Source: Olivibacter sp. XZL3
GTDB lineage: Bacteria > Bacteroidota > Bacteroidia > Sphingobacteriales > Sphingobacteriaceae
Direction of reading: 5' to 3'
Assembly (NCBI RefSeq): GCF_004368405.1
Contig: NZ_SBJH01000011.1
Location: 40,095-104,094 of the forward strand
DNA: 64,000 nucleotides
Both the position numbers and the translations under genes were made by a program. This document shows, one piece after another, positions 124 to 25,732 of the stretch. The notes beneath the pieces were generated by a model. The model saw only the letters and a list, made by a program, of their open reading frames with translations, ran no database searches and was not told the origin of the DNA. Each line of letters starts with the position of its first letter. Position 1 is the stretch's first letter.

Positions 124-912
124 ATGGCAATAAAAAGAACGCCGAAAAAGAATCAATTTCGGAAGAAAAGTTCGTATAAAAATAAAAAGAGCAAGCGCGC
201 GTTTCCTGTCAAAGACCGATTATTAGCGTTTCTTCGAGAGCGAAAATTCGGCCCGTTTTTAGCCTATATAGCCTTATGTTTTATCATCGTTACCGGGGCT
301 TGGGTCTTTCTATTACGTTTTATTAATCCGCCGATCACTTGGCTTATGTTGCAGCGCGGCGTTGAACGCAAATTAGATGGAAAAGACTGGAAGCTCGAAA
401 AGCGTTGGGTGAGTTACGAGGATTTGTCTGACAACCTAAAGCGAGCAGCCATTGCAGGAGAGGACGCTCATTTTATGAATCATGTGGGATTTGACATCAA
501 GGCCATTCGAGAAGCTTACGAAAAGAATCAGGCGGGCAAAGCCATGCGCGGAGGCAGTACGATTAGTCAACAAACAGCAAAAAACGTTTTTCTATGGCCT
601 GGTCGTTCTTGGGTCCGAAAAGGATTTGAAAGCTACTTTACCATCCTCATTGAATTATTATGGGGCAAAAAGAGAATTCTGGAAGTCTATCTCAATGTCA
701 TCGAAACGGGAGATGGCCTCTACGGCGCATATGCGGCAACACAAAACTATTTTAAAAAAGGTCCCTCTTCGCTGACGAAAAAGCAAGCCGCCCTTATTAT
801 TGCGGTACTACCCAATCCAAGACGCTGGTCGCCCGCCAAACCAACGCCCTACATTAACAGAAAGGCCAACACGATCGTCCGCTATATGGGGCACAGTAAA
901 ATCCCTAACTAA
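124..912 (+). CDS. mtgA: Monofunctional biosynthetic peptidoglycan transglycosylase
   Basis: A GT51 glycosyltransferase that polymerises lipid II into glycan strands at the outer face of the inner membrane. The 262-aa protein has a basic N-terminus (about residues 1-42), one membrane anchor (about 45-66) and the GT51 domain. The catalytic motif is at 112-124 (GEDAHFMNHVGFD, catalytic Glu113), and GGSTISQQ is at 143-150, followed by TAKNVFLWPGRSW. There is no transpeptidase domain, and the length suits MtgA rather than a bifunctional PBP. The ATG at 124 is the only start that keeps the basic leader. Its stop codon overlaps the stop of the convergent neighbour (909-912). Confidence 0.95.
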   Translation: MAIKRTPKKNQFRKKSSYKNKKSKRAFPVKDRLLAFLRERKFGPFLAYIALCFIIVTGAWVFLLRFINPPITWLMLQRGVERKLDGKDWKLEKRWVSYEDLSDNLKRAAIAGEDAHFMNHVGFDIKAIREAYEKNQAGKAMRGGSTISQQTAKNVFLWPGRSWVRKGFESYFTILIELLWGKKRILEVYLNVIETGDGLYGAYAATQNYFKKGPSSLTKKQAALIIAVLPNPRRWSPAKPTPYINRKANTIVRYMGHSKIPN

Positions 913-1364
913 GCAAATACGCGAGCGTGCCAGCTATCTTTAAAAGGAACTTCCCACTTAGTTATCAAATCGTTTCGGTTATCAACCATATTATTAAAGA
1001 CCAACGTGTCTTCGTTAATTTGTCCTTCCGCCAACAGCCGCTCAAAGCTTGCACGAGGTACAACCCGAATCTCGTCTCCCTGACGATAGGCTATTTGCAT
1101 TCGATCAAAAAGCGAGATGTTTAACGTTTGTTCCAGTTCTTTTAATATATGAACCGATTTATCAATGGAGCAGCCACTCGGTAGGGCTACTGATTGGTCG
1201 ACACTGATGATGATAAACAAATGATATCTAATTTCTACTTTCGCAGCCAGTTGTTCCTTATGCGCTTTCCACTGGGACGTAAAAGCAGCTAATTTCTCGA
1301 GAATGAAGGCCTCCTCTTCATCAGAAAAAGGCTTTGCTCCCTGGTATATCCAAATTCGTTCCAT
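909..1364 (-). CDS. Conserved hypothetical protein (151 aa)
   Basis: A soluble 151-aa protein with no signal peptide, membrane segment or catalytic motif that I recognise. It starts MERIWIYQGAKPFSDEEE and ends in a Trp- and Arg-containing tail (ITKWEVPFKDSWHARVFA). From memory, similar short proteins are common in Bacteroidota and are sometimes labelled ABC transporter ATPase, but there is no Walker A motif here, so I would not use that name. The gene converges on mtgA and the stop codons overlap. Its start at 1364 is preceded on the minus strand by the T-rich tail of a composite intergenic repeat (1383-1631). Confidence 0.7.
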   Translation of the reverse strand: MERIWIYQGAKPFSDEEEAFILEKLAAFTSQWKAHKEQLAAKVEIRYHLFIIISVDQSVALPSGCSIDKSVHILKELEQTLNISLFDRMQIAYRQGDEIRVVPRASFERLLAEGQINEDTLVFNNMVDNRNDLITKWEVPFKDSWHARVFA

Positions 1365-1382
1365 GCTTTATAAAGTAAAAAT

Positions 1383-1631
1383 TCAAAAGTAAAAAGTCAA
1401 AAAGCCTGTCAGACGTGCCGGTTTTACATCTAATACCTAAACGCTAACTGTTAACGCCTACCAACACCTATTAACTAGTCCCTACTACAACTTCCCCATC
1501 AAAGTAAAAAGCTCGCCTCCCGAAGGGATGGTAAAAAGTCAAAACCCCGAAGAGCTCATTGATGCCTTATTAAAATAAGCAAGACATCAATAATTCAAAA
1601 GTCAAAAAGCTCGCCTCCCGAAGGGATGGTA
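1383..1631 (-). repeat. Composite intergenic repeat, copy 1 (modules C-A-C-B)
   Basis: Read on the minus strand, this spacer contains module C (1630-1609), module A (1595-1543), C again (1531-1511) and module B (1510-1404), ending in a T-rich tail just before the 151-aa gene. Module B is nearly identical to 21132-21241 and 19352-19452. Module A matches 21243-21303 and 11001-11055. A and C share the core CCCTTCGGG. Each module ends in a short G+C hairpin followed by CTTTTTnACTTTT, which looks like an intrinsic terminator or attenuator unit. Confidence 0.8.
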
Positions 1632-3524: not shown

Positions 3525-3685
3525 ACGTTTAAATAGTTTTGAGGTTAAAGGTTAAAGATAAGGTTTTACACCCTGATTGAGAAATTAATAACACAAAACT
3601 TAACGAGTCCGCTTTTAAGTGCCGAAAGCCGGCGAATTTAAAAAGTAAAACGCGGATCCAAACCCATGTAATCGATGCGGCAGTA

Positions 3686-7436: not shown

Positions 7437-9131
7437 ATGCTAACTGAACAAAAAACTGAACTAAACAAATACAGCAAGGTATTTACACAAGACAAGACAC
7501 AACCTGCTGCCCAAGCCATGCTCTATGGCATCGGCCTTACCGACGAAGATATGAATAAGGCGCAAGTCGGGATCGCGAGCATGGGCTATGATGGCAATAC
7601 CTGTAACATGCATTTGAACGACCTGGCACAAGTAGTCAAAAAAGGCGTATGGGACAGTGACCTCGTTGGTTTAGTGTTTAACACCATTGGCGTGAGTGAC
7701 GGGATGAGCAACGGAACAGATGGTATGCGCTATTCGCTGGTAAGCCGCGATATTATTGCCGATAGTATCGAAGCTATCTGCGGGGGGCAATATTACGATG
7801 GCCTCATTACTATCCCAGGTTGCGATAAAAATATGCCGGGATCTATTATGGCCATGGGAAGACTTAACCGTCCATCGATCATGGTATACGGCGGAACGAT
7901 TGCCCCGGGGCATTATAAGGGAGAGGATTTAAACATTGTATCGGCTTTCGAAGCACTTGGAAAGAAAATAGCAGGAACCATTAGTGAGGAAGATTTTATA
8001 GGAGTCATCAAACATACCTGTCCCGGCGCGGGCGCCTGTGGTGGAATGTATACCGCGAATACCATGGCCTCTGCCATTGAGGCTTTGGGAATGAGTCTTC
8101 CCTACTCCTCTTCTAATCCTGCTGTAAGTGAAGAAAAAAGAAAAGAGTGCCTGGAAGCAGGTAAATATATCCGTATTCTTTTGGAAAAGGATATTAAGCC
8201 CTCCGATATTATGACCCGCAAGGCTTTTGAAAATGCATTACGTGTCATCATTATCCTGGGAGGCAGCACCAACGCGGTATTGCATTTTATTGCGATGGGT
8301 AAAAGCATAGGTGTTGAAATTACGCAGGACGACTTTCAACGGATGAGCGATACAACCCCCGTGTTAGCGGACTTCAAACCAAGCGGTAAATATCTGATGC
8401 AAGATCTTCATCAACACGGTGGCACGCCGGCCGTGATGAAATACTTATTAAATGAGGGTTTGCTTCATGGCGACTGCCTCACGGTTACCGGCAAAACCTT
8501 AGCGGAAAATCTGGAAAACGTGGAGCCCATCAACATGAAGAACCAGCATATCGTGCAAACCCTCGACAACCCGATCAAAGCTACCGGGCATTTACAGATT
8601 TTATATGGCAACTTGGCGGAAAAGGGAAGTGTTGCCAAAATATCCGGAAAAGAAGGAGAACGCTTTGAAGGGCCCGCACGGGTGTTTGACGGCGAAAAGA
8701 ATCTAGTAGCCGGCCTCGCCAATGGCAGAGTGAAAGCAGGTGATGTTGTGGTTATAAAAAACGAAGGCCCTAAAGGAGCTCCGGGAATGCCCGAAATGCT
8801 AAAACCGACTTCGGCTATTATAGGTGCCGGTTTGGGTAAATCGGTAGCGCTGATCACGGATGGACGCTTTAGCGGCGGTACACATGGTTTTGTAGTCGGA
8901 CATATCACACCGGAAGCCTACGAAGGAGGATTAATCGGTTTGGTGGAAGACGACGATATCATCGAGATTGATGCGGTCAATAATACCATTACGCTAAAGG
9001 TCTCAGAGGAAATCATCGCTGAAAGGAGACGTAACTGGAAACAACCCAGCTTGAAAGTCAGCAAAGGAGTACTGTATAAATATGCTAAGACCGTTTCTAA
9101 TGCCGCTGAAGGTTGCGTAACGGATGAATAA
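7437..9131 (+). CDS. ilvD: Dihydroxy-acid dehydratase
   Basis: Dehydrates 2,3-dihydroxy-3-methylbutanoate and -pentanoate to the 2-oxo acids, the third shared step of valine and isoleucine synthesis. The 564-aa protein has Fe-S/metal ligands in CDKNMPGS and [16 protein letters not shown], and the late motif [15 protein letters not shown]. Length and motifs fit the IlvD/Edd family; BCAA neighbours support IlvD rather than sugar-acid dehydratases. It opens the ilv/leu cluster and is followed after 98 nt of heptad-repeat spacer by ilvB. Confidence 0.97.
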
Positions 9132-9137
9132 AAGCAA

Positions 9138-9225
9138 TGTCAGCACGCGCAGGGCGGCTGACAAGCGACGACTGAAAGCTGACAACTAATAAAAATAACG
9201 AGTAACAAACAACCCATAACAAAAA
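9138..9225. repeat. Heptanucleotide-periodic spacer between ilvD and ilvB
   Basis: From 9157 four consecutive 7-base units read GCTGACA, AGCGACG, ACTGAAA, GCTGACA. From 9198 four more read ACGAGTA, ACAAACA, ACCCATA, ACAAAAA; their complement has the form GTTnnnn seen also at 21011. TGTCAGC at 9138-9144 can pair with GCTGACA at 9157-9163 (7-bp stem). The array ends 4 nt before the ilvB ATG. Confidence 0.65.
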
Positions 9226-9229
9226 GGAT

Positions 9230-10981
9230 ATGAATACGCTCGAAGTAACGAAAGACGCACCTCAAGCGACGCTAGAGGAAAAGGCAAAAACGAGAAAGAT
9301 TTCAGGCTCTCAAGCCGTATTGGAAGCACTTATTGCGGAGGGTGCAGACACTATATTTGGTTATCCAGGAGGCGCAATTATGCCTATTTATGATGCGCTT
9401 TATGATTACAACGATCGACTGAAACATATATTGGTGCGTCATGAGCAAGGTGGTATCCATGCCGCACAGGGCTATGCCCGCACATCCGGTAAAACAGGCG
9501 TAGTATTTGCAACCAGCGGCCCGGGCGCAACAAACTTGGTTACCGGTTTGGCTGATGCCATGATCGACAGCAACCCCCTTGTATGTGTTACAGGGCAAGT
9601 TTTTGCACATCTACTAGGTACCGATGCCTTTCAGGAGACCGATGTGATCAATATTACTACACCCGTAACAAAATGGAATTATCAGGTAACCGACGCCTGC
9701 GAAATTCCAGCGGCCATTGCAAAGGCATTCTATATAGCGAGCACCGGTCGTCCTGGCCCCGTTCTGATCGACATTACAAAAAACGCACAGTTACAATTAT
9801 TTGATTACGAGGGCTACACCTCTTGCAATCATGTAAGAAGCTACCGCCCTGCGCCCATCATTCGTAAAGAATATATCGCGCAAGCGGCCGAATTGATCAA
9901 CCAAGCAAAAAAGCCTTTTGTCCTTTTCGGTCAAGGCGTCATTCTCGGCAAAGCGGAACAGGAGTTTAAAGCTTTTATAGAAAAAACAGGGATTCCTGCT
10001 GCATGGACGATTATGGGCTTAAGCGCCTTACCAACAGAACATCCCTTAAATGTGGGAATGCTGGGGATGCACGGAAATTATGCTCCAAACGTTTTAACCA
10101 ACGAGTGCGATGTACTCATTGCCATCGGTATGCGTTTTGACGACCGGGTGACGGGGCGCTTAGATAAATATGCAAAACAAGCCAAAATCATTCATTTAGA
10201 TATCGATCCGGCTGAGATCGACAAAAATGTAAAAGCTACCGTACCGGTATGGGGCGATTGTAAAGAGACATTGCCTTTACTCACCGAGTTAGTTCAAGCC
10301 AATCAACACCAAGAATGGCTAGAAAAATTCCGCACGCTCGAACAAGAAGAGGTGAAAGAAGTCATCAACAGCGAGCTGCAACCAGAGGAAGGCGAGATGA
10401 CCATGGGCGAAGTGATCAATATACTGAACGAATTAACACATGACGACGCGGTCTTCGTAACCGATGTTGGCCAGCACCAAATGGTAGCATGCCGTTATGC
10501 ACGCTTTAAACAGTCGAAAAGCAATGTAACCTCTGGTGGCTTAGGCACTATGGGCTTCGGTCTTCCAGCGGCCATAGGCGCTTGGTATGGTGCGCCTGAA
10601 CGCAATGTGATTGCCATTATCGGTGACGGCGGCATACAAATGACGATTCAGGAATTGGGCACCATTATGCAATTCGGCGCGAAGGTTAAAATCCTGATTC
10701 TAAACAACCAATTCTTAGGTATGGTACGTCAATGGCAACAGCTGTTCCATGATAAACGTTACTCTTTTGTGAATATCACAAGCCCCGATTACGTAGCCGT
10801 AGCTAAGGGATACTACATTCCCGGAAAACGCGTCGATCAACGCGCCCAACTGCGCGAGGCCTTGCAGGAAATGCTAGACCACGACGGCGCTTACCTTTTA
10901 GAGGTCATGGTTGGCAAAGAAAACAATGTTTTCCCAATGGTACCGCAAGGAAGTAGTGTGAGTGAAATAAGACTAAAGTAA
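9230..10981 (+). CDS. ilvB: Acetolactate synthase, large (catalytic) subunit
   Basis: Thiamine-diphosphate enzyme joining pyruvate with pyruvate or 2-oxobutyrate, the first shared step of valine/leucine and isoleucine synthesis. The 583-aa protein shows the catalytic glutamate in VRHEQGGIHAAQGYAR, the FAD/middle domain (GMLGMHGNYAPN, GMRFDDRVTGRLD) and the TPP-binding motif GDGGIQMTIQELGT through LNNQFLGMVRQWQ. The partner subunit ilvN lies 375 nt downstream, an unusually long gap filled by a repeat and a gene remnant. Confidence 0.97.
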   Translation: MNTLEVTKDAPQATLEEKAKTRKISGSQAVLEALIAEGADTIFGYPGGAIMPIYDALYDYNDRLKHILVRHEQGGIHAAQGYARTSGKTGVVFATSGPGATNLVTGLADAMIDSNPLVCVTGQVFAHLLGTDAFQETDVINITTPVTKWNYQVTDACEIPAAIAKAFYIASTGRPGPVLIDITKNAQLQLFDYEGYTSCNHVRSYRPAPIIRKEYIAQAAELINQAKKPFVLFGQGVILGKAEQEFKAFIEKTGIPAAWTIMGLSALPTEHPLNVGMLGMHGNYAPNVLTNECDVLIAIGMRFDDRVTGRLDKYAKQAKIIHLDIDPAEIDKNVKATVPVWGDCKETLPLLTELVQANQHQEWLEKFRTLEQEEVKEVINSELQPEEGEMTMGEVINILNELTHDDAVFVTDVGQHQMVACRYARFKQSKSNVTSGGLGTMGFGLPAAIGAWYGAPERNVIAIIGDGGIQMTIQELGTIMQFGAKVKILILNNQFLGMVRQWQQLFHDKRYSFVNITSPDYVAVAKGYYIPGKRVDQRAQLREALQEMLDHDGAYLLEVMVGKENNVFPMVPQGSSVSEIRLK

Positions 10982-11319: not shown

Positions 11320-11356
11320 TTTTTAACTTTTGAATTTTACCTTTTGAATTAAAAGA

Positions 11357-12457: not shown

Positions 12458-13939
12458 ATGGCAAATTATTTTAACACCCTACCACTGAGAGAGAAATTGA
12501 ATCAATTAGGCGTCGCCGAATTTATGGACATTAGCGAGTTTGCAGATGGAGTGAGCGCATTAAAAGGTAAAAAAATCGTCATCGTAGGTTGCGGTGCTCA
12601 AGGCTTAAATCAAGGGCTCAACTTAAGGGATAGCGGGCTGGATGTTTCCTACGCCCTCCGAAAAGAAGCGATTGATCAGAAGAGAGACTCATGGAAAAAT
12701 GCTACCAACAATAACTTCACGGTAGGCACCTATGAAGAACTTATTCCAACGGCTGATCTCGTGAGCAATTTAACGCCTGATAAACAACACTCTGCTGTCA
12801 TTGATGCCGTTATGCCTTTAATGAAAGAAGGTGCTACACTGTCTTATTCGCATGGTTTCAATATTGTTGAAGAAGGAAAACAGATCCGCAAAGACATCAC
12901 CGTGATTATGGTTGCACCGAAGTGCCCGGGCTCAGAAGTGAGAGCTGAATATTTACGTGGTTTCGGTGTACCTACCCTCATTGCGGTTCACCCCGAAAAC
13001 GATCCACAAGGTAAGGGGCTAGCGGAAGCCAAAGCCTATTGCGTAGGCACTGGTGGCCACAAAGCAGGCGTACTGCGTTCGTCTTTCGTGGCTGAAGTAA
13101 AATCGGACCTAATGGGCGAGCAAACGATCTTATGCGGACTTTTACAAACGGGTTCTATCCTATCATTCGACAAAATGGTAGAAAAAGGAATCGAACCAGG
13201 CTATGCCTCAAAACTTGTTCAATATGGTGTTGAAGTCATTACGGAAGCGTTAAAACAAGGAGGTATCACGGCAATGATGGATAGATTAAGCAATGTAGCC
13301 AAAATTAAGGCCTTTGAAGTTTCCGAAGAGCTTAAAACCATCATGCGTCCCCTATTCCAAAAACATCAAGATGATATCATGAGTGGCGAATTTAGCCGCA
13401 CCATGATGGAAGACTGGGCCAATGGCGACAAAAACTTATTGGCTTGGCGCGCCGCTACAGGTGAAACAGCCTTTGAAAAAACGCCTGCCGGCGATGTCAA
13501 GATTGGAGAACAAGAGTACTTTGATCATGCGGTATTTATGGTTTCTTATATTAAAGCCGGCGTGGAACTGGCCTTCGAAACCATGGTAGAAGCAGGCATT
13601 AAACCGGAGTCAGCTTATTATGAATCTTTACATGAAACACCGTTAATCGCTAATACCATCGCCCGTAAAAAGCTATTTGAAATGAATCGCGTCATTTCGG
13701 ATACGGCTGAATATGGCTGTTATTTATTCGATCACGCTTGTAAACCGCTATTAGCTGATTTCATGAAAACTGTGGATACCGATATCATCGGAAAAAACTA
13801 CAACGAAGGAAAAGATGGAGCGGTTGACAATCAGGAATTAATTGCGGTTAATGATGCCATCCGCAACCATCCTGTAGAAAAAGTAGGCGCAGTATTACGA
13901 AAAGCAATGACGGCGATGAAGGCCATTAAAACAGCATAA
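12458..13939 (+). CDS. ilvC: Ketol-acid reductoisomerase, class II
   Basis: Isomerises and reduces 2-acetolactate or 2-aceto-2-hydroxybutyrate, the second shared BCAA step, with NADPH and magnesium. The Rossmann motif [15 protein letters not shown] is near residues 44-58. At 493 aa it is the long class II form with a duplicated C-terminal knotted domain, as in E. coli, rather than the class I form of about 330 aa. It is the last ilv gene before a likely new promoter at 14036-14066. Confidence 0.97.
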
Positions 13940-19333: not shown

Positions 19334-19483
19334 CACCTCCGGGAGGCAAGCTTTTTTACTTTGACAGGGAAGTTTTAGTAGGTATTGATAGGCGTTAACA
19401 GTTGACATTTAGGTATTAGATGTAAAACCGGCACGCCTGACAGACTTTTTGAATTTTTACTTTTGAATTTTTAATTAAAAATA
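19334..19483 (+). repeat. Composite intergenic repeat, copy 3 (modules C-B)
   Basis: Module C with CCTCCGGGAGG (19337-19347) and the stretch AGCTTTTTTAC, then module B (about 19352-19452) nearly identical to 21132-21241. It ends in the tail TTTTTACTTTTGAATTTTTA directly before the ATG at 19485. The tail holds TACTTTTG, which fits the TAnnTTTG -7 box. Confidence 0.8.
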
Positions 19484-19484
19484 A

Positions 19485-20999
19485 ATGAAAAGGAAAATAG
19501 AAATAATGGACACAACGCTGCGCGACGGCGAACAAACGTCGGGTGTGTCTTTTTCTATTTCAGAGAAACTAACCATTGCCCAACTGCTCTTGGAAGAACT
19601 GCATGTGGACCGCGTTGAAATTGCCTCTGCGCGCGTATCGGAGGGCGAGTTCGAAGCAGTGAAAGCAATAAGCAGCTGGGCGCAGGCGAGCGGACATCTC
19701 AACGCTATTGAAATATTAACCTTTGTCGACAAAGGCGTTTCTATCGACTGGATGTTGAAGGCAGGCGTGAAAGTACAGAATTTGCTGACCAAAGGCTCCT
19801 TAAACCACCTTACGCATCAGCTAAAGAAAACGCCGGAACAACATTTCTCAGAGATCGCAACAATTATTGCTTCGGCAGACAAGGAAGGGATCGAAACGAA
19901 TGTTTACCTGGAGGACTGGAGTAATGGCATGAAAAATTCGCCGGAATACGTACATCAGTATCTCGCGTTCCTCTGTGAACAACCCATAAAACGAATTCTG
20001 CTTCCCGATACCTTAGGCGTGTTAACACCCGCTCAAACATTTCAATATATATCCGAATTAAAGGCAAAATATCCGGATCAACATATTGACTTCCATGCGC
20101 ACAACGACTACGACCTGGGCACGGCCAATGTGCTGGAAGCGGTAAAGGCCGGAGCAAATGGCTTGCACCTAACCGTCAATGGGATGGGGGAAAGAGCAGG
20201 TAATGCGCCTATGGCCAGTGTAGTAGCCGTCATAAACGATTTTCTTCCCGATGTTGAGGTTGCTGTGAAGGAGGCCGCCATTTATAAAGTAAGTAAGTTA
20301 GTCGAAACTTTTTCGGGGGTGAGAATTCCCGCCAACAAACCGATTGTCGGCGAAAACGTGTTTACGCAAACAGCGGGCATTCATGCCGATGGCGACAATA
20401 AAAACAATCTTTATTTCAATGATCTTCTCCCCGAGCGTTTTGGCAGAAAACGCCAATATGCCCTCGGAAAGACCTCGGGCAAAGCGAACATTGAAAAGAA
20501 CCTGCAAGAGCTCGGCTTAAAGCTCAACAACGAGGATCTCAAAAAGGTTACGCAGCGGGTTATCGAATTGGGCGACCGGAAAGAAACGGTTACCAAAGAC
20601 GATTTGCCTTACATTATTTCTGACGTACTCGACAGCAATTTGTACGAAGAGAAAGTAAAGGTAGAATCCTACGTTTTAACACATGCCAAAGGACTACGTC
20701 CATCGGCCACCATCGCGGTATGTATGAATGGCAAGATCATGGAAGAGCATGCGCAGGGCGACGGTCAGTTCGATGCTTTTATGAAAGCTTTGGCAAAAGT
20801 GTATCAAAAGAAGAACCTCAGGCTACCCAAATTGATTGACTATAACGTCCGAATCGCTCCTGGAAGTAGCTCGGACGCTTTGTGCGAAACCGTGATTACA
20901 TGGGAAGTGGGAAATCGCACCTTCGCTACCCGCGGCTTGGATTCCGATCAAACGGTTTGCGCGATTAAAGCAACACAAAAGATGTTGAATATTATTTAA
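19485..20999 (+). CDS. Citramalate synthase / 2-isopropylmalate synthase homologue
   Basis: Second HMGL-barrel Claisen condensing enzyme of the cluster, 504 aa, with [17 protein letters not shown] at the start, HAHNDYDLGTANVLEA, NGMGERAGNAPMASV, and a C-terminal LeuA-type regulatory domain (RPSATIAVCMNG onward). Family members include (R)-citramalate synthase CimA (acetyl-CoA plus pyruvate, giving 2-oxobutyrate for isoleucine via LeuCDB) and LeuA paralogues. Position between leuD and leuB and the presence of a bona fide leuA favour CimA, but I cannot settle specificity from sequence, so no symbol is given. Confidence 0.8.
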   Translation: MKRKIEIMDTTLRDGEQTSGVSFSISEKLTIAQLLLEELHVDRVEIASARVSEGEFEAVKAISSWAQASGHLNAIEILTFVDKGVSIDWMLKAGVKVQNLLTKGSLNHLTHQLKKTPEQHFSEIATIIASADKEGIETNVYLEDWSNGMKNSPEYVHQYLAFLCEQPIKRILLPDTLGVLTPAQTFQYISELKAKYPDQHIDFHAHNDYDLGTANVLEAVKAGANGLHLTVNGMGERAGNAPMASVVAVINDFLPDVEVAVKEAAIYKVSKLVETFSGVRIPANKPIVGENVFTQTAGIHADGDNKNNLYFNDLLPERFGRKRQYALGKTSGKANIEKNLQELGLKLNNEDLKKVTQRVIELGDRKETVTKDDLPYIISDVLDSNLYEEKVKVESYVLTHAKGLRPSATIAVCMNGKIMEEHAQGDGQFDAFMKALAKVYQKKNLRLPKLIDYNVRIAPGSSSDALCETVITWEVGNRTFATRGLDSDQTVCAIKATQKMLNII

Positions 21000-21010
21000 T
21001 GATATCAATA

Positions 21011-21091
21011 GTTGCCGGTTACGCGTTGTGCGTTGTGAGTACCTATATAGTTTACCAAATGCAGGCAACTGGCAACCGGCAACTCGCAACT
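21011..21091. repeat. Two facing heptad arrays between the cimA-like gene and leuB
   Basis: Array one: GTTGCCG, GTTACGC, GTTGTGC, GTTGTGA (21011-21038). Array two: GGCAACT, GGCAACC, GGCAACT, CGCAACT (21064-21091), close to the complement of the first type. AGTTGCCGGTT (21010-21020) and AACCGGCAACT (21074-21084) are perfect inverted copies, so the whole element could fold. The period is exactly 7 in both. Confidence 0.8.
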
Positions 21092-21103
21092 GTTGAATTG
21101 TTA

Positions 21104-21317
21104 TCGTCCCTACGGGAGGCAAGCTTTTTACTTTGATAGGAAAGTTTTGTAGGAGTGGTTAGTAGGTTTTGATAGGCGTTAACAGTTGGCGTTTAGGTAT
21201 TAGATGTAAAACCGGCACGCCTGACAGGCTTTTTTACTTTTTAATTATTGATGTCTTGCTTATTTTAATAAGGCATCAATGAGCCCTTCGGGGTTTTGAC
21301 TTTTTAATTTTTAATTA
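21104..21317 (+). repeat. Composite intergenic repeat, copy 4 (modules C-B-A)
   Basis: The fullest copy: module C (21106-21131), B (21132-21241) and A (21243-21303), then an AT-rich tail ending 5 nt before the leuB ATG. Each module ends in a small hairpin and T-tract: C has CCCTACGGGAGG then CTTTTTAC, B has GCCTGACAGGC then TTTTTTAC, A has GCCCTTCGGGG then TTTTGACTTTTT. Confidence 0.85.
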
Positions 21318-21322
21318 ACACT

Positions 21323-22384
21323 ATGAAATTGAATATCGCTCTTCTAGCAGGAGATGGAATCGGCCCCGAAGTTATCGATCAGGCCGTAAAGGTTGTAAAC
21401 GCAGTAGCCAATAAATTTAACCATGATATTAACTGGACAGCTGCTTTAACCGGAGCTGCGGCAATAGAGGCCGTGGGAGAACCTTATCCAGAGGAAACGC
21501 ACGAAGTCTGCATGGCAGCAGATGCCGTTTTATTCGGCGCCATCGGCCATCCGCGCTTTGACAACGATCCCAAAGCCACCGTGCGGCCTGAGCAAGGTTT
21601 GCTTAAAATGCGAAAAAAGCTGGGCCTATTTGCCAATGTTCGTCCGACTTTTACATTCCCGTCTTTGATCGACAACTCTCCGTTAAAGCGCGAGCGCATC
21701 GAGGGTACTGACTTAGTAATCCTGCGCGAATTGACCGGAGGAATCTATTTTGGTGAAAGAGGCCGCAAAGATAACGGCGATACTGCCTTCGATACCTGCA
21801 CCTATACCCGGGAGGAGATCAAGCGCCTCGCCAAACTAGGCTTTGAAATGGCTATGGGCCGCCGTAAAAAGCTGTGCTGTGTAGATAAGGCCAACGTGTT
21901 GGAAAGCTCCCGTTTGTGGAGAGAAACCGTACAGGATATGGAAAAAGATTTTCCGGAAGTAGAAGTGAGCTACGAATTTGTGGACGCAGTAGCTATGCGC
22001 CTGGTTCAATGGCCAAGCGCTTATGACGTGATCATCACAGAAAACCTATTCGGCGATATTTTGACAGACGAGGCCTCGGTTATTTCGGGATCAATGGGCT
22101 TAATGCCCTCATCCTCTATCGGTATTCACACCTCTCTTTTTGAACCGATCCATGGATCCTATCCACAAGCGGCGGGAAAAGACATTGCCAACCCACTGGC
22201 TACGGTGCTTTCTGCAGCCATGATGTTTGAAGATGCCTTTAATTTAAAAGAGGAGGCCGCCGCCATCCGTGCAGTCGTAAATAAATCGCTCGCGGAAGGA
22301 ATTGTGACAGAAGATTTAGCTGGCAAAAGCAATAAGGCCTATAAAACCAGCGAGGTTGGCGACTGGTTAGCCGCTAATATTTAA
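21323..22384 (+). CDS. leuB: 3-Isopropylmalate dehydrogenase
   Basis: NAD-dependent oxidative decarboxylation of 3-isopropylmalate to 2-oxoisocaproate. The 353-aa protein has LAGDGIGPEV at residues 8-17, the substrate arginines in RPEQGLLKMRK and RELTGGIYFG, the catalytic DKANVLESSRLWRE, and the signature ENLFGDILTDEASVISGSMG ending in the NAD site HGSYPQAAGKDIANP. Length and motifs are typical. It follows the longest composite repeat and is followed by a hairpin that may separate it from ilvA. Confidence 0.97.
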   Translation: MKLNIALLAGDGIGPEVIDQAVKVVNAVANKFNHDINWTAALTGAAAIEAVGEPYPEETHEVCMAADAVLFGAIGHPRFDNDPKATVRPEQGLLKMRKKLGLFANVRPTFTFPSLIDNSPLKRERIEGTDLVILRELTGGIYFGERGRKDNGDTAFDTCTYTREEIKRLAKLGFEMAMGRRKKLCCVDKANVLESSRLWRETVQDMEKDFPEVEVSYEFVDAVAMRLVQWPSAYDVIITENLFGDILTDEASVISGSMGLMPSSSIGIHTSLFEPIHGSYPQAAGKDIANPLATVLSAAMMFEDAFNLKEEAAAIRAVVNKSLAEGIVTEDLAGKSNKAYKTSEVGDWLAANI

Positions 22385-24569: not shown

Positions 24570-24600
24570 ACCATCCCTACCGGAGGCTAGTTTTCATTTT
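24570..24600 (+). repeat. Solitary module C of the composite repeat, copy 5
   Basis: ACCATCCCTACCGGAGGC followed by TAGTTTTCATTTTTAAC matches module C plus its T-rich tail. It lies between the aroB stop and the ThuA gene, on the strand opposite to both. Confidence 0.55.
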
Positions 24601-25673
24601 TAACTCAACAACGATCGATAATAATCCAAGCTTTCGGTTATTTGTTCGCTTGAAAGATAAATATCAAAATCACAGGTTCCAATTTCCTTCAATAAAGCGA
24701 AGCCGATCTCACTCCCCGTATTTTTCTTATCATTCAGCATATAGGAATATAAATCCTCATAAATACCTTCGCCAAAAGAATAAGCTGGAAATACCTGCAT
24801 GATATAGGATACAACAGTATTTAAAGAGGCCAACGGCAATCCATTATAGCGATGAGACAAATAGGCCTCGCAAATCATTCCCACGGCAATGGCTTCGCCA
24901 TGAAGTAAGGGAAAAGAATCGTTTGCTAAAGAATAACTTTCAATAGCGTGTCCAACCGTATGCCCGAAATTTAAAATTTTACGAAGCCCTTTTTCCGTCG
25001 GATCCTTCGTAACCACCTCTTTTTTTATGGCAACAGACCGATAAATATAGTCGGGGTCCACGTGCGCTGGCTCGACTGCCTGCAATTCTTCAAAATAAGC
25101 ATTGCTGTAGATCAATCCATGTTTTATCATTTCAGCAAAACCGGAAACTAACTGCCTTTCATCCAGCGTAGCCAAGAAGCCACTATGAATCAGCACGGCT
25201 TTAGGTTGTGCGAAGGTGCCGATAATATTTTTCACCCCGTCCATATCGATTCCGGTCTTTCCCCCTACAGAAGCATCGACCTGTGCTAGCAAAGTGGTTG
25301 GAATCTGTATGAAATCGATCCCCCGTTTAAAAGTCGAGGCAGCAAACCCGCCGATATCCGTGATCACGCCCCCACCTAAGTTGATCAACAAGCTTTTCCG
25401 GTCTGCCCCAAAATCGAGCAACATCTTCCATATACCGATACAGAAATCGATGTTCTTGTTTTCTTCACCCGGGTCAATCTCAATCAAATCATAGTCCTTC
25501 AATTCTGACATCGCCGCAGTGAATATTGGCAGGCAATGCTCGCTTGTATTACGGTCGGTCAGAATAAAAACTTTCGTATAGGTATGCTTGGCTAAAAGCG
25601 CGCGCAGCGCATTAAATTCTTTATCAAAATATACAGAATAGGTATTACTTTTTAACTCTTTGATCATGCTCAT
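24600..25673 (-). CDS. aroB: 3-Dehydroquinate synthase
   Basis: NAD- and metal-dependent cyclisation of DAHP to 3-dehydroquinate, second step of the shikimate pathway. The 357-aa protein shows the NAD-binding LGGGVITDIGGFAA, the RGIDFIQIPTTLLAQVDASVGGKTG-type substrate region (split here as IQIPTTLLAQVDAS and GGKTGID), and zinc ligands including LNFGHTVGHAIE and HGEAIAVGM. The start at 25673 lies just downstream of the heptad arrays that fill the gap to the S4-domain gene. Confidence 0.96.
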   Translation of the reverse strand: MSMIKELKSNTYSVYFDKEFNALRALLAKHTYTKVFILTDRNTSEHCLPIFTAAMSELKDYDLIEIDPGEENKNIDFCIGIWKMLLDFGADRKSLLINLGGGVITDIGGFAASTFKRGIDFIQIPTTLLAQVDASVGGKTGIDMDGVKNIIGTFAQPKAVLIHSGFLATLDERQLVSGFAEMIKHGLIYSNAYFEELQAVEPAHVDPDYIYRSVAIKKEVVTKDPTEKGLRKILNFGHTVGHAIESYSLANDSFPLLHGEAIAVGMICEAYLSHRYNGLPLASLNTVVSYIMQVFPAYSFGEGIYEDLYSYMLNDKKNTGSEIGFALLKEIGTCDFDIYLSSEQITESLDYYRSLLS

Positions 25674-25674
25674 T

Positions 25675-25732
25675 AGCTCTCAGCTCTCAGCTTTCAGAAA
25701 TCAGCCGATATCCGATTTCCGATGGCCGATAG
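25675..25732. repeat. Two tandem heptad arrays (AGCTYTC and CCGATnn)
   Basis: AGCTCTC, AGCTCTC, AGCTTTC occupy 25675-25695; CCGATAT, CCGATTT, CCGATGG, CCGATAG occupy 25705-25732. Both have an exact 7-base period, with a 9-base link between them. The element fills the whole gap between the S4-domain gene and aroB. Confidence 0.85.

Follow-up and report, generated by a model that had tools for sequence, protein, structure and literature searches.

Degenerate seven-base arrays in intergenic spacers of Olivibacter sp. XZL3 and other Bacteroidia, a possible footprint of a mutational process

Between a gene of the CimA/LeuA family and leuB, Olivibacter sp. XZL3 carries two facing arrays of seven-base units whose letters vary from unit to unit while the step stays the same. 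The question raised by this locus is whether such arrays are a conserved signal or the trace of a DNA copying habit. The genome is a draft of 5.36 Mb in 122 contigs, and the stretch of 64,000 nucleotides analyzed here is referred to as the window. The following features of the window are used below.

1369–1402, minus strand: start-proximal T-rich array, sense TTTTGACTTTTTACTTTTGAA..., 4 nt 5' of the ORF at 909–1364 (minus strand).
19447–19476, plus strand: start-proximal T-rich array TTTTGAA TTTTTAC TTTTGAA TTTTTAA, 8 nt 5' of the CimA/LeuA-like gene.
19485–20999, plus strand: CimA/LeuA-family gene, 5' of the array; best NCBIfam match NF042433 (CimA) with 688.8 bits, below the cut-off of 950.
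21011–21038, plus strand: stop-proximal array GTTGCCG GTTACGC GTTGTGC GTTGTGA, 11 nt 3' of the CimA/LeuA-like stop.
21039–21063, plus strand: gap of 25 nt separating the facing arrays.
21064–21091, plus strand: facing array GGCAACT GGCAACC GGCAACT CGCAACT, the reverse complement of the first word.
21246–21297, plus strand: separate hairpins in the spacer of the facing arrays, ATTGATG...CATCAAT and then GAGCCCTTCGGGGTTTT, terminator-like.
21294–21316, plus strand: start-proximal T-rich array TTTTGAC TTTTTAA TTTTTAA, 6 nt 5' of leuB.
21323–22384, plus strand: leuB, exceeding the cut-off of TIGR00169.
25675–25730, minus strand: eight degenerate units adjoining aroB (24600–25673, minus strand) on its 5' side, with a hairpin fold of z −3.2.

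The nearest named matches of the CimA/LeuA-like protein are in a Sphingobacteriaceae MAG (84% identity), Pedobacter, Daejeonella, and Mucilaginibacter, a list from which very near records are possibly omitted. The units quoted in the original prediction for 21011–21038 and 21064–21091 are present letter for letter, and TRF reports a period of 7 at 21023–21037 and 21064–21092. The facing pair folds with a z of −2.1 on the sense strand (7 of 200 shuffles fold equally well) and of −2.8 on the antisense strand. Like an intrinsic terminator it would form a hairpin behind a stop codon but, unlike one, the facing array at 21064–21091 is not followed by a U-run, the next letters being GTTGAATTGTTATCG. 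A stretch similar to the terminator-like one at 21246–21297 is found in G001, a genome of the same genus. Rfam covariance models gave no match up to E 1 between 19200 and 21500. The same spacer also contains TCCCTACGGGAGGCA (21107–21121), which resembles the region of the universal 16S primer; a similar form lies in the orthologous spacer of G001, and the XZL3 genome has it at four places including the window copy.

The seven-base period was assessed with TRF and by scoring identity at each lag against dinucleotide shuffles, genes being called with a simple ORF rule and spacers longer than 1500 nt excluded. Across the 39 window spacers, identity at lag 7 is 0.301 versus 0.272 in the shuffles (z 6.5); lag 14 reaches z 4.1 and all remaining lags from 2 to 30 stay at or below 2.5. 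Outside the window, in 20 stretches covering 385 kb of the 5.36 Mb and 190 spacers, z is 11.3 at lag 7, 8.6 at lag 14, 9.0 at lag 21, and 5.2 at lag 28. The excess over shuffles on which the original prediction had staked its case is therefore found in the window and beyond it. The signal is confined to spacers: in 347 kb of XZL3 coding DNA, identity at lag 7 is 0.250, without any excess. In the XZL3 spacers outside the window, z also lies between about 4 and 7 at lags 3, 4, 6, and 10 (4.8 and 4.0 for lags 4 and 10); the excess at lags 3 and 6 may come from missed short genes.

Individual arrays were then defined as segments above a score threshold. The 232 XZL3 spacers, window included, hold 29 segments scoring at least 12 at lag 7, 0–2 at each of the lags 4–6 and 8–13, and 0.3 in shuffles. 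The units in these spacers follow each other head to tail and measure exactly seven bases. At our site the second arm (21064–21091) scores 15, while shuffles yield 0.1 segments of at least 14 per 45 kb; the first arm (21011–21038) scores 11 and would be borderline if alone. Of the four further window spacers announced in the original prediction, three are recovered at the strict threshold (1369–1402, 19447–19476, and 25675–25730), and weaker TRF rows at 11321–11350 and 3542–3557 could make up the number. The segment at 21294–21316 shares its spacer with the quoted arrays. Elsewhere in XZL3, an 801-nt spacer of contig C90 (L095, 8828–9481) displays several similar heptamer blocks (AGCAATA AGCATTA..., GCAACCG...), which look like the product of a tandem duplication of higher order.

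The arrays are not evenly distributed among spacer types. Among XZL3 spacers of 50–350 nt, we counted 17 arrays in 17.6 kb of co-directional, 4 in 3.6 kb of convergent, and none in 5.9 kb of divergent spacers, where 5.8 were expected. Relatives have, in this length range, 130 co-directional, 15 convergent, and 5 divergent arrays (28 expected for the last). Five XZL3 arrays, however, sit in two long divergent spacers of 670 and 961 nt, so the avoidance is limited to short divergent spacers.

We then compared 80 related loci (L006–L085), whose counts are not independent because 58 of them appear to be from Flavobacteriia. They contain 110 lag-7 segments scoring at least 13. In several of them, one word behind the stop is answered by its reverse complement before the next start: ATTTTAG/AAAATCT (L018), ACGTTTT/AAACGTA (L009), GCTTTAA/AAAGCCT (L024), and AGAATCA/TCTTGAC (L011). 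The convergent spacer of L031 has GTTTCAG/TGAAACC arrays facing each other. Inverted repeats were searched in spacers of 50–350 nt, with 30 shuffles each. Those scoring at least 15 occur in 42 of the 97 co-directional spacers of relatives with a lag-7 array versus 86 of 445 without, and in 8 of 11 versus 35 of 94 convergent spacers. Overall, they number 128 of 542 co-directional (9 in shuffles), 43 of 105 convergent (1), and 9 of 92 divergent spacers (8). As 86 of the 128 strong co-directional inverted repeats lack a lag-7 array, hairpin and period overlap and are partly separate things. Within these 128 hairpins, arm complementarity is 0.81 in the nested register, a value raised by construction since the hairpins were selected for complementarity, 0.42 at shift 7, 0.39–0.40 at shift 14, and 0.24–0.37 elsewhere. 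The drop from register 0 to shift 7 indicates more than a shared word, which alone would give similar values at both. A G/T-rich first arm is not a general rule in relatives (99 vs. 85). By eye, the leuC–leuD spacer of L025 (around 9116–9272) shows three facing arrays in which a variant unit GCAATA is mirrored in the other arms; whole arms seem to have been copied along with their variants.

The facing arrangement described in the original prediction thus recurs in relatives, with arms complementary unit by unit, but it is not the rule in XZL3 itself. Lag-7 arrays occur in 13 co-directional and 3 convergent XZL3 spacers, and in none of these is there an inverted repeat scoring at least 15 (at least 12: three and none, respectively). 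In this genome one-armed arrays are the rule, and the two-armed window spacer is an exception.

Orthologous spacers show how quickly the arrays change. The CimA/LeuA-like gene and leuB are both present in 11 of the 12 stretches of relatives opened for this spacer. In the same-genus genomes G001 and G004, whose LeuB proteins are 97 and 96% identical to that of the window, the spacer measures 207 and 123 nt and has no GTTGCCG array; heptamer-like AAGACAT/AAGTATC stretches are visible there by eye only, the best stop-side scores, 5 and 9, being below threshold. In a third genome of the genus, G003 (LeuB 92% identical), the orthologous place is a bare spacer of 23 nt. The length of this spacer within the genus thus ranges from 23 to 323 nt. 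Similarly, the leuC–leuD spacer of Flavobacterium, identified by gene order and length, contains words of the AAAATCT, AAATCAA, or GCTTTAA/AAAGCCT type depending on the genome. In L007 and L016 the leuC–leuD spacer has a common element, CCCTCTCCTTNGGAGAGGGATTTAGGGTGAGGC, unrelated to the heptamers.

Close relatives differ by whole units. Among 84 close spacer pairs, indels of at least 4 bases are exactly 7 bases long in 8 of 11 cases in periodic context versus 2 of 50 elsewhere, 3 intermediate cases being excluded. These eight correspond to three independent unit differences, which are unpolarised (L017 vs. L027, L033, and L036; L023 vs. L020 and L021; L023 vs. L025), and to two gaps that stem from an inversion. 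In a less stringent indel count, length 7 did not stand out in periodic context (86 gaps of 7, 217 of 6, and 118 of 8); this count was set aside because it accepted gap-ridden alignments judged too poor. The inversion concerns two close Flavobacterium genomes: the 39-base core of a palindrome in L020 is present in L023 solely as its exact reverse complement (around 12725–12860). Judging from the two sequences, it would be a natural record of inversion mediated by the arms. In both genomes an ordinary terminator-like hairpin comes after the inverted palindrome. Words and copies change fast between species, which is easier to reconcile with a habit of DNA copying than with a conserved signal.

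We hold with moderate confidence that a mutational process at the DNA level, slippage together with fold-back copying, has left these arrays in the transcribed but untranslated spacers of Bacteroidia, where its products are tolerated. Slippage would gain or drop whole units of seven bases, or of eight at some loci. Fold-back template switching would copy one arm onto the other, seemingly with more activity in relatives than in XZL3. Spacers would in this way grow into quasi-palindromes with arms made of chains of degenerate heptamers. The length of the unit may reflect that of the duplex gripped by the polymerase, and selection would remove arrays only from places where they harm promoters or coding sequence. 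That slippage and template switching are at work is our inference. Several observations run against this reading: the XZL3 arrays are unlinked to hairpins, the facing pair in the window folds only modestly, most hairpins of relatives have no array, long divergent spacers do contain arrays, the GTTG word has a strand bias, and the looser indel count found no excess.

The alternative of selection at the RNA level deserves attention, although we consider it improbable. The facing arrays would be maintained as hairpins in operon mRNAs, stabilising or processing the message or coupling translation, and their repeated units would permit several pairing registers. Folding and position are what one would expect. 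In the length range of 50–350 nt, a folding z below −3 is reached by 33% of the 542 co-directional, 62% of the 105 convergent (ordinary terminators included), and 4% of the 92 divergent spacers of relatives, and by 9% of 117, 23% of 26, and 3% of 33, respectively, in XZL3. The median distance from stop to arm is 8 nt. Pairs also change on both sides: in 162 spacer pairs, which are not independent, both partners changed 49 times versus 17.7 expected, 27 of the 49 giving another Watson–Crick pair.

Selection on an RNA pair should tolerate G.U above A.C on the sense strand. We paired arms by Watson–Crick scoring only and then counted mismatches on this strand. The 130 co-directional hairpins scoring at least 15, of which 128 are from relatives, have 137 G.U versus 168 A.C, and the 59 hairpins with periodic arms have 53 and 62, respectively; no preference for G.U is seen. 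Conversely, 46 terminator-like hairpins show 22 G.U versus 9 A.C, only 31 mismatches in what is the sole positive control, since tRNAs yielded no usable stems. The difference is significant against hairpins scoring at least 15 (Fisher's test, P = 0.0075) and against periodic arms scoring at least 12 (P = 0.018). New single changes in the 162 non-independent spacer pairs likewise lead to G.U 87 times and to A.C 101 times. The arms evolve jointly, and the wobble signature of RNA selection is missing. Selection for RNA hairpins thus accounts for position and folding, not for the missing wobble excess, and the bare 23-nt spacer of a same-genus relative at this very place also speaks against it.

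Octamers occur as well. The co-directional spacers of relatives contain 59 lag-8 segments scoring at least 11, of which 55 do not overlap a lag-7 segment; about six of the lag-8 segments are possibly due to chance, gauged from 5.6 shuffled segments at lag 7. None of the 55 lies in a spacer holding a lag-7 array. The statement of the original prediction that the seven-base phase never slips is hence true of the site and does not extend to the class. Lags 6 and 9 are near background, with 8 and 2 segments. Of the 18 lag-8 segments with the best scores, 16 are from Flavobacteriia and lie in the spacer immediately 3' of the CimA/LeuA-like gene; this spacer reaches LeuB within 50–200 nt and is the place of the heptamers in the window.

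Arrays are patchy across genomes. XZL3 is rich in them; elsewhere in the class, sampled with one or two stretches per genome, several genomes have arrays and others show none. For other classes of the phylum, nine stretches with 17.4 kb of spacers contain a single array, and for Escherichia coli K-12 there is none in the 15.9 kb of spacers within 150 kb. Within the genus we found 11 arrays in 6.3 kb of spacers in G001, 4 in 5.0 kb in G004, and 1 in 8.3 kb in G003. G003 (L142–L144, L154, and L155) is almost free of arrays despite the 92% LeuB identity to the window; the two genomes are a good pair to find the responsible gene. Loss of SbcD was considered as a cause and rejected: XZL3 has SbcD, and arrays occur in 3 of 8 class genomes with and 9 of 18 without SbcD above the cut-off, a weak comparison over 20–40 kb each. 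No polymerase or repair gene could be linked to the arrays, and the presence of SbcD did not track the trait.

The choice of words in XZL3 is not entirely free. The original prediction had proposed a changing word for each locus; words do differ between loci, yet two families recur. GTTGYCRGTTGYCRGTT has 52 matches in the genome and TTTTKAM ×3 has 70, reversed controls giving 0 for both; counted by hand among the matches listed, they form about 25–27 and 32 clusters. For the first 30 of the 52 GTTG-word matches, in 13 spacers, 8 cases have the array 3' of the upstream gene and on its coding strand, 3 have it on the opposite strand, 1 has it in a divergent spacer, and 1 within a called ORF. For the first 30 of the 70 T-rich matches, also in 13 spacers, the array is in sense orientation before a start in 8 cases (3 to 160 nt, pooled), opposite in 2, convergent in 1, and undecided in 2. 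XZL3 words are partly shared among loci and partly positioned. The 8 to 3 preference of the GTTG word suggests selection or a transcription-linked bias.

The T-rich arrays may be a separate matter, as they keep word and strand: the start-side word is conserved in the window, in G001 and, less cleanly, in G004. This start-proximal subclass (TTTTGAA/TTTTTAC) may be maintained by translation or promoter needs. TAnnTTTG, which we take to be a promoter motif, occurs in 218 upstream regions 49 times in sense versus 26 in antisense orientation, and 17 versus 8 times with TTG spacing; a promoter role of the T-rich arrays is suggestive only. It is to these arrays that a further explanation chiefly applies, binding sites for a protein of the cold-shock or S1 type reading single-stranded RNA or DNA in seven-base steps. 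The mostly sense orientation before starts and the number of units before leuB, three in the window and five in G001, would suit it, and CspB was proposed for the TAACTGA repeats by MacGregor in the accessible text of PMC4679880. Words, however, vary by locus and by species, and the stop-side words listed have no visible cross-genus consensus, so that we regard this explanation as unlikely.

Recurrence of two word families at many XZL3 places, and a spacer length of 23 to 323 nt at one place within a genus, might also be expected if a dispersed mobile or copied element, MITE- or REP-like, seeded the arrays. By eye, the listed arrays share neither constant ends nor a constant core apart from their degenerate words, and orthologous Flavobacterium spacers differ in their words, which makes such an element very improbable. 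Least credible is a word consisting of a self-complementary hexamer plus one base, counting sense G.U pairs, that would let a single array fold on itself and explain unit and strand preference: AAGCTT and CAGTTG look so by eye, but column-permuted arrays fold about equally well. The fraction of permuted copies that equal or surpass the real array in folding averages 0.66 over 14 stop-side arrays and 0.45 over 15 start-side ones in XZL3, and 0.46 over 28 and 0.69 over 38, respectively, in relatives.

Heptamer repeats are known from several bacteria. The STRR of filamentous cyanobacteria are tandem heptamers outside genes with few fixed words, and the comparison with them made in the original prediction is apt. 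XZL3 does not have one or a few near-perfect words per genome; its units are degenerate and its words many, although the two families recur. Closest in layout are the GGGAATC/GGGANTN heptamers of Xanthomonas (Rehm et al. 2015, PMC4692102), a report which, in its accessible text, also mentions three Calothrix heptamers. The Xanthomonas repeats lie on average 28 nt from the upstream and 160 nt from the downstream gene; 70 and 75 facing pairs were counted, and 8 and 7% are between divergent genes. They share with our arrays degenerate heptamers in spacers, the facing orientation, the greater proximity to the upstream gene, and rarity in divergent spacers, and the arrays at 21011–21038 and 21064–21091 do face each other at short distance. 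They differ by a single G-rich word with quadruplex potential, whereas here words are many, relatives have octamer loci, and the units at 21011–21091 contain no GGG run, so that G-tracts of the quadruplex type are lacking.

MacGregor (2015, PMC4679880) described TAACTGA repeats from Beggiatoaceae, from cyanobacteria, and from five Bacteroidetes, three of the latter, Gramella, Aequorivita, and Elizabethkingia, having other heptamer repeats beside them. They resemble the present arrays in unit length, in location in spacers, and in lying often directly before start codons; they differ in that their word is always the same and is repeated directly, apart from one indirect repeat in the main genome, and the accessible text does not describe paired arms. 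No TAACTGA direct repeat exists at our site, where the words are GTTGCCG/GGCAACT; the related AACTGAC and AACTGAT occur elsewhere in the XZL3 genome. A genome survey found repeats of the 7n3 class over-represented in Bacteroidetes (median 0.75, 34 genera), with 6n3 and 8n3 at 0 (Huang and Mrazek 2014, PMC4060949, Table 2). As far as its accessible text goes, it counts perfect tandem repeats and does not cover a link to gene ends or turnover at orthologous places; the arrays described here are degenerate. From the survey and the TAACTGA reports, the class is not wholly new to the phylum. In the literature outside subscription papers and supplements, we found no account of facing heptamers whose word is free and which turn over from one sister species to the next. 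The idea of a step length set by the duplex that the polymerase grips is attributed to Mrazek in PMC4679880; we found no test of it in the accessible heptamer-repeat literature.

A broader form of the mutational reading can be put forward tentatively, as a possibility we think rather improbable. Fold-back and slippage, locked into steps of seven or eight bases, would constitute a spacer-writing engine throughout the Bacteroidia; quasi-palindromes would be built, inverted, rewritten, and deleted again, at a constant step and without constraint on the word. If so, the spacers would be a genome-wide recording of the step length of the polymerase, and a fast-evolving class of DNA of which we found no description as such in the accessible literature. 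A word of caution applies to annotation, as hairpins between operon genes in Bacteroidia may be mistaken for regulatory RNA. In L020, L023, and L031, a separate hairpin flanked by A/T follows the heptamer hairpin. Heptamer repeats have so far mostly been noted one word at a time and in distant bacteria. In the Bacteroidia, many loci reveal word, step, arm complementarity, and the history of orthologous spacers at once, making a mutational origin directly testable.
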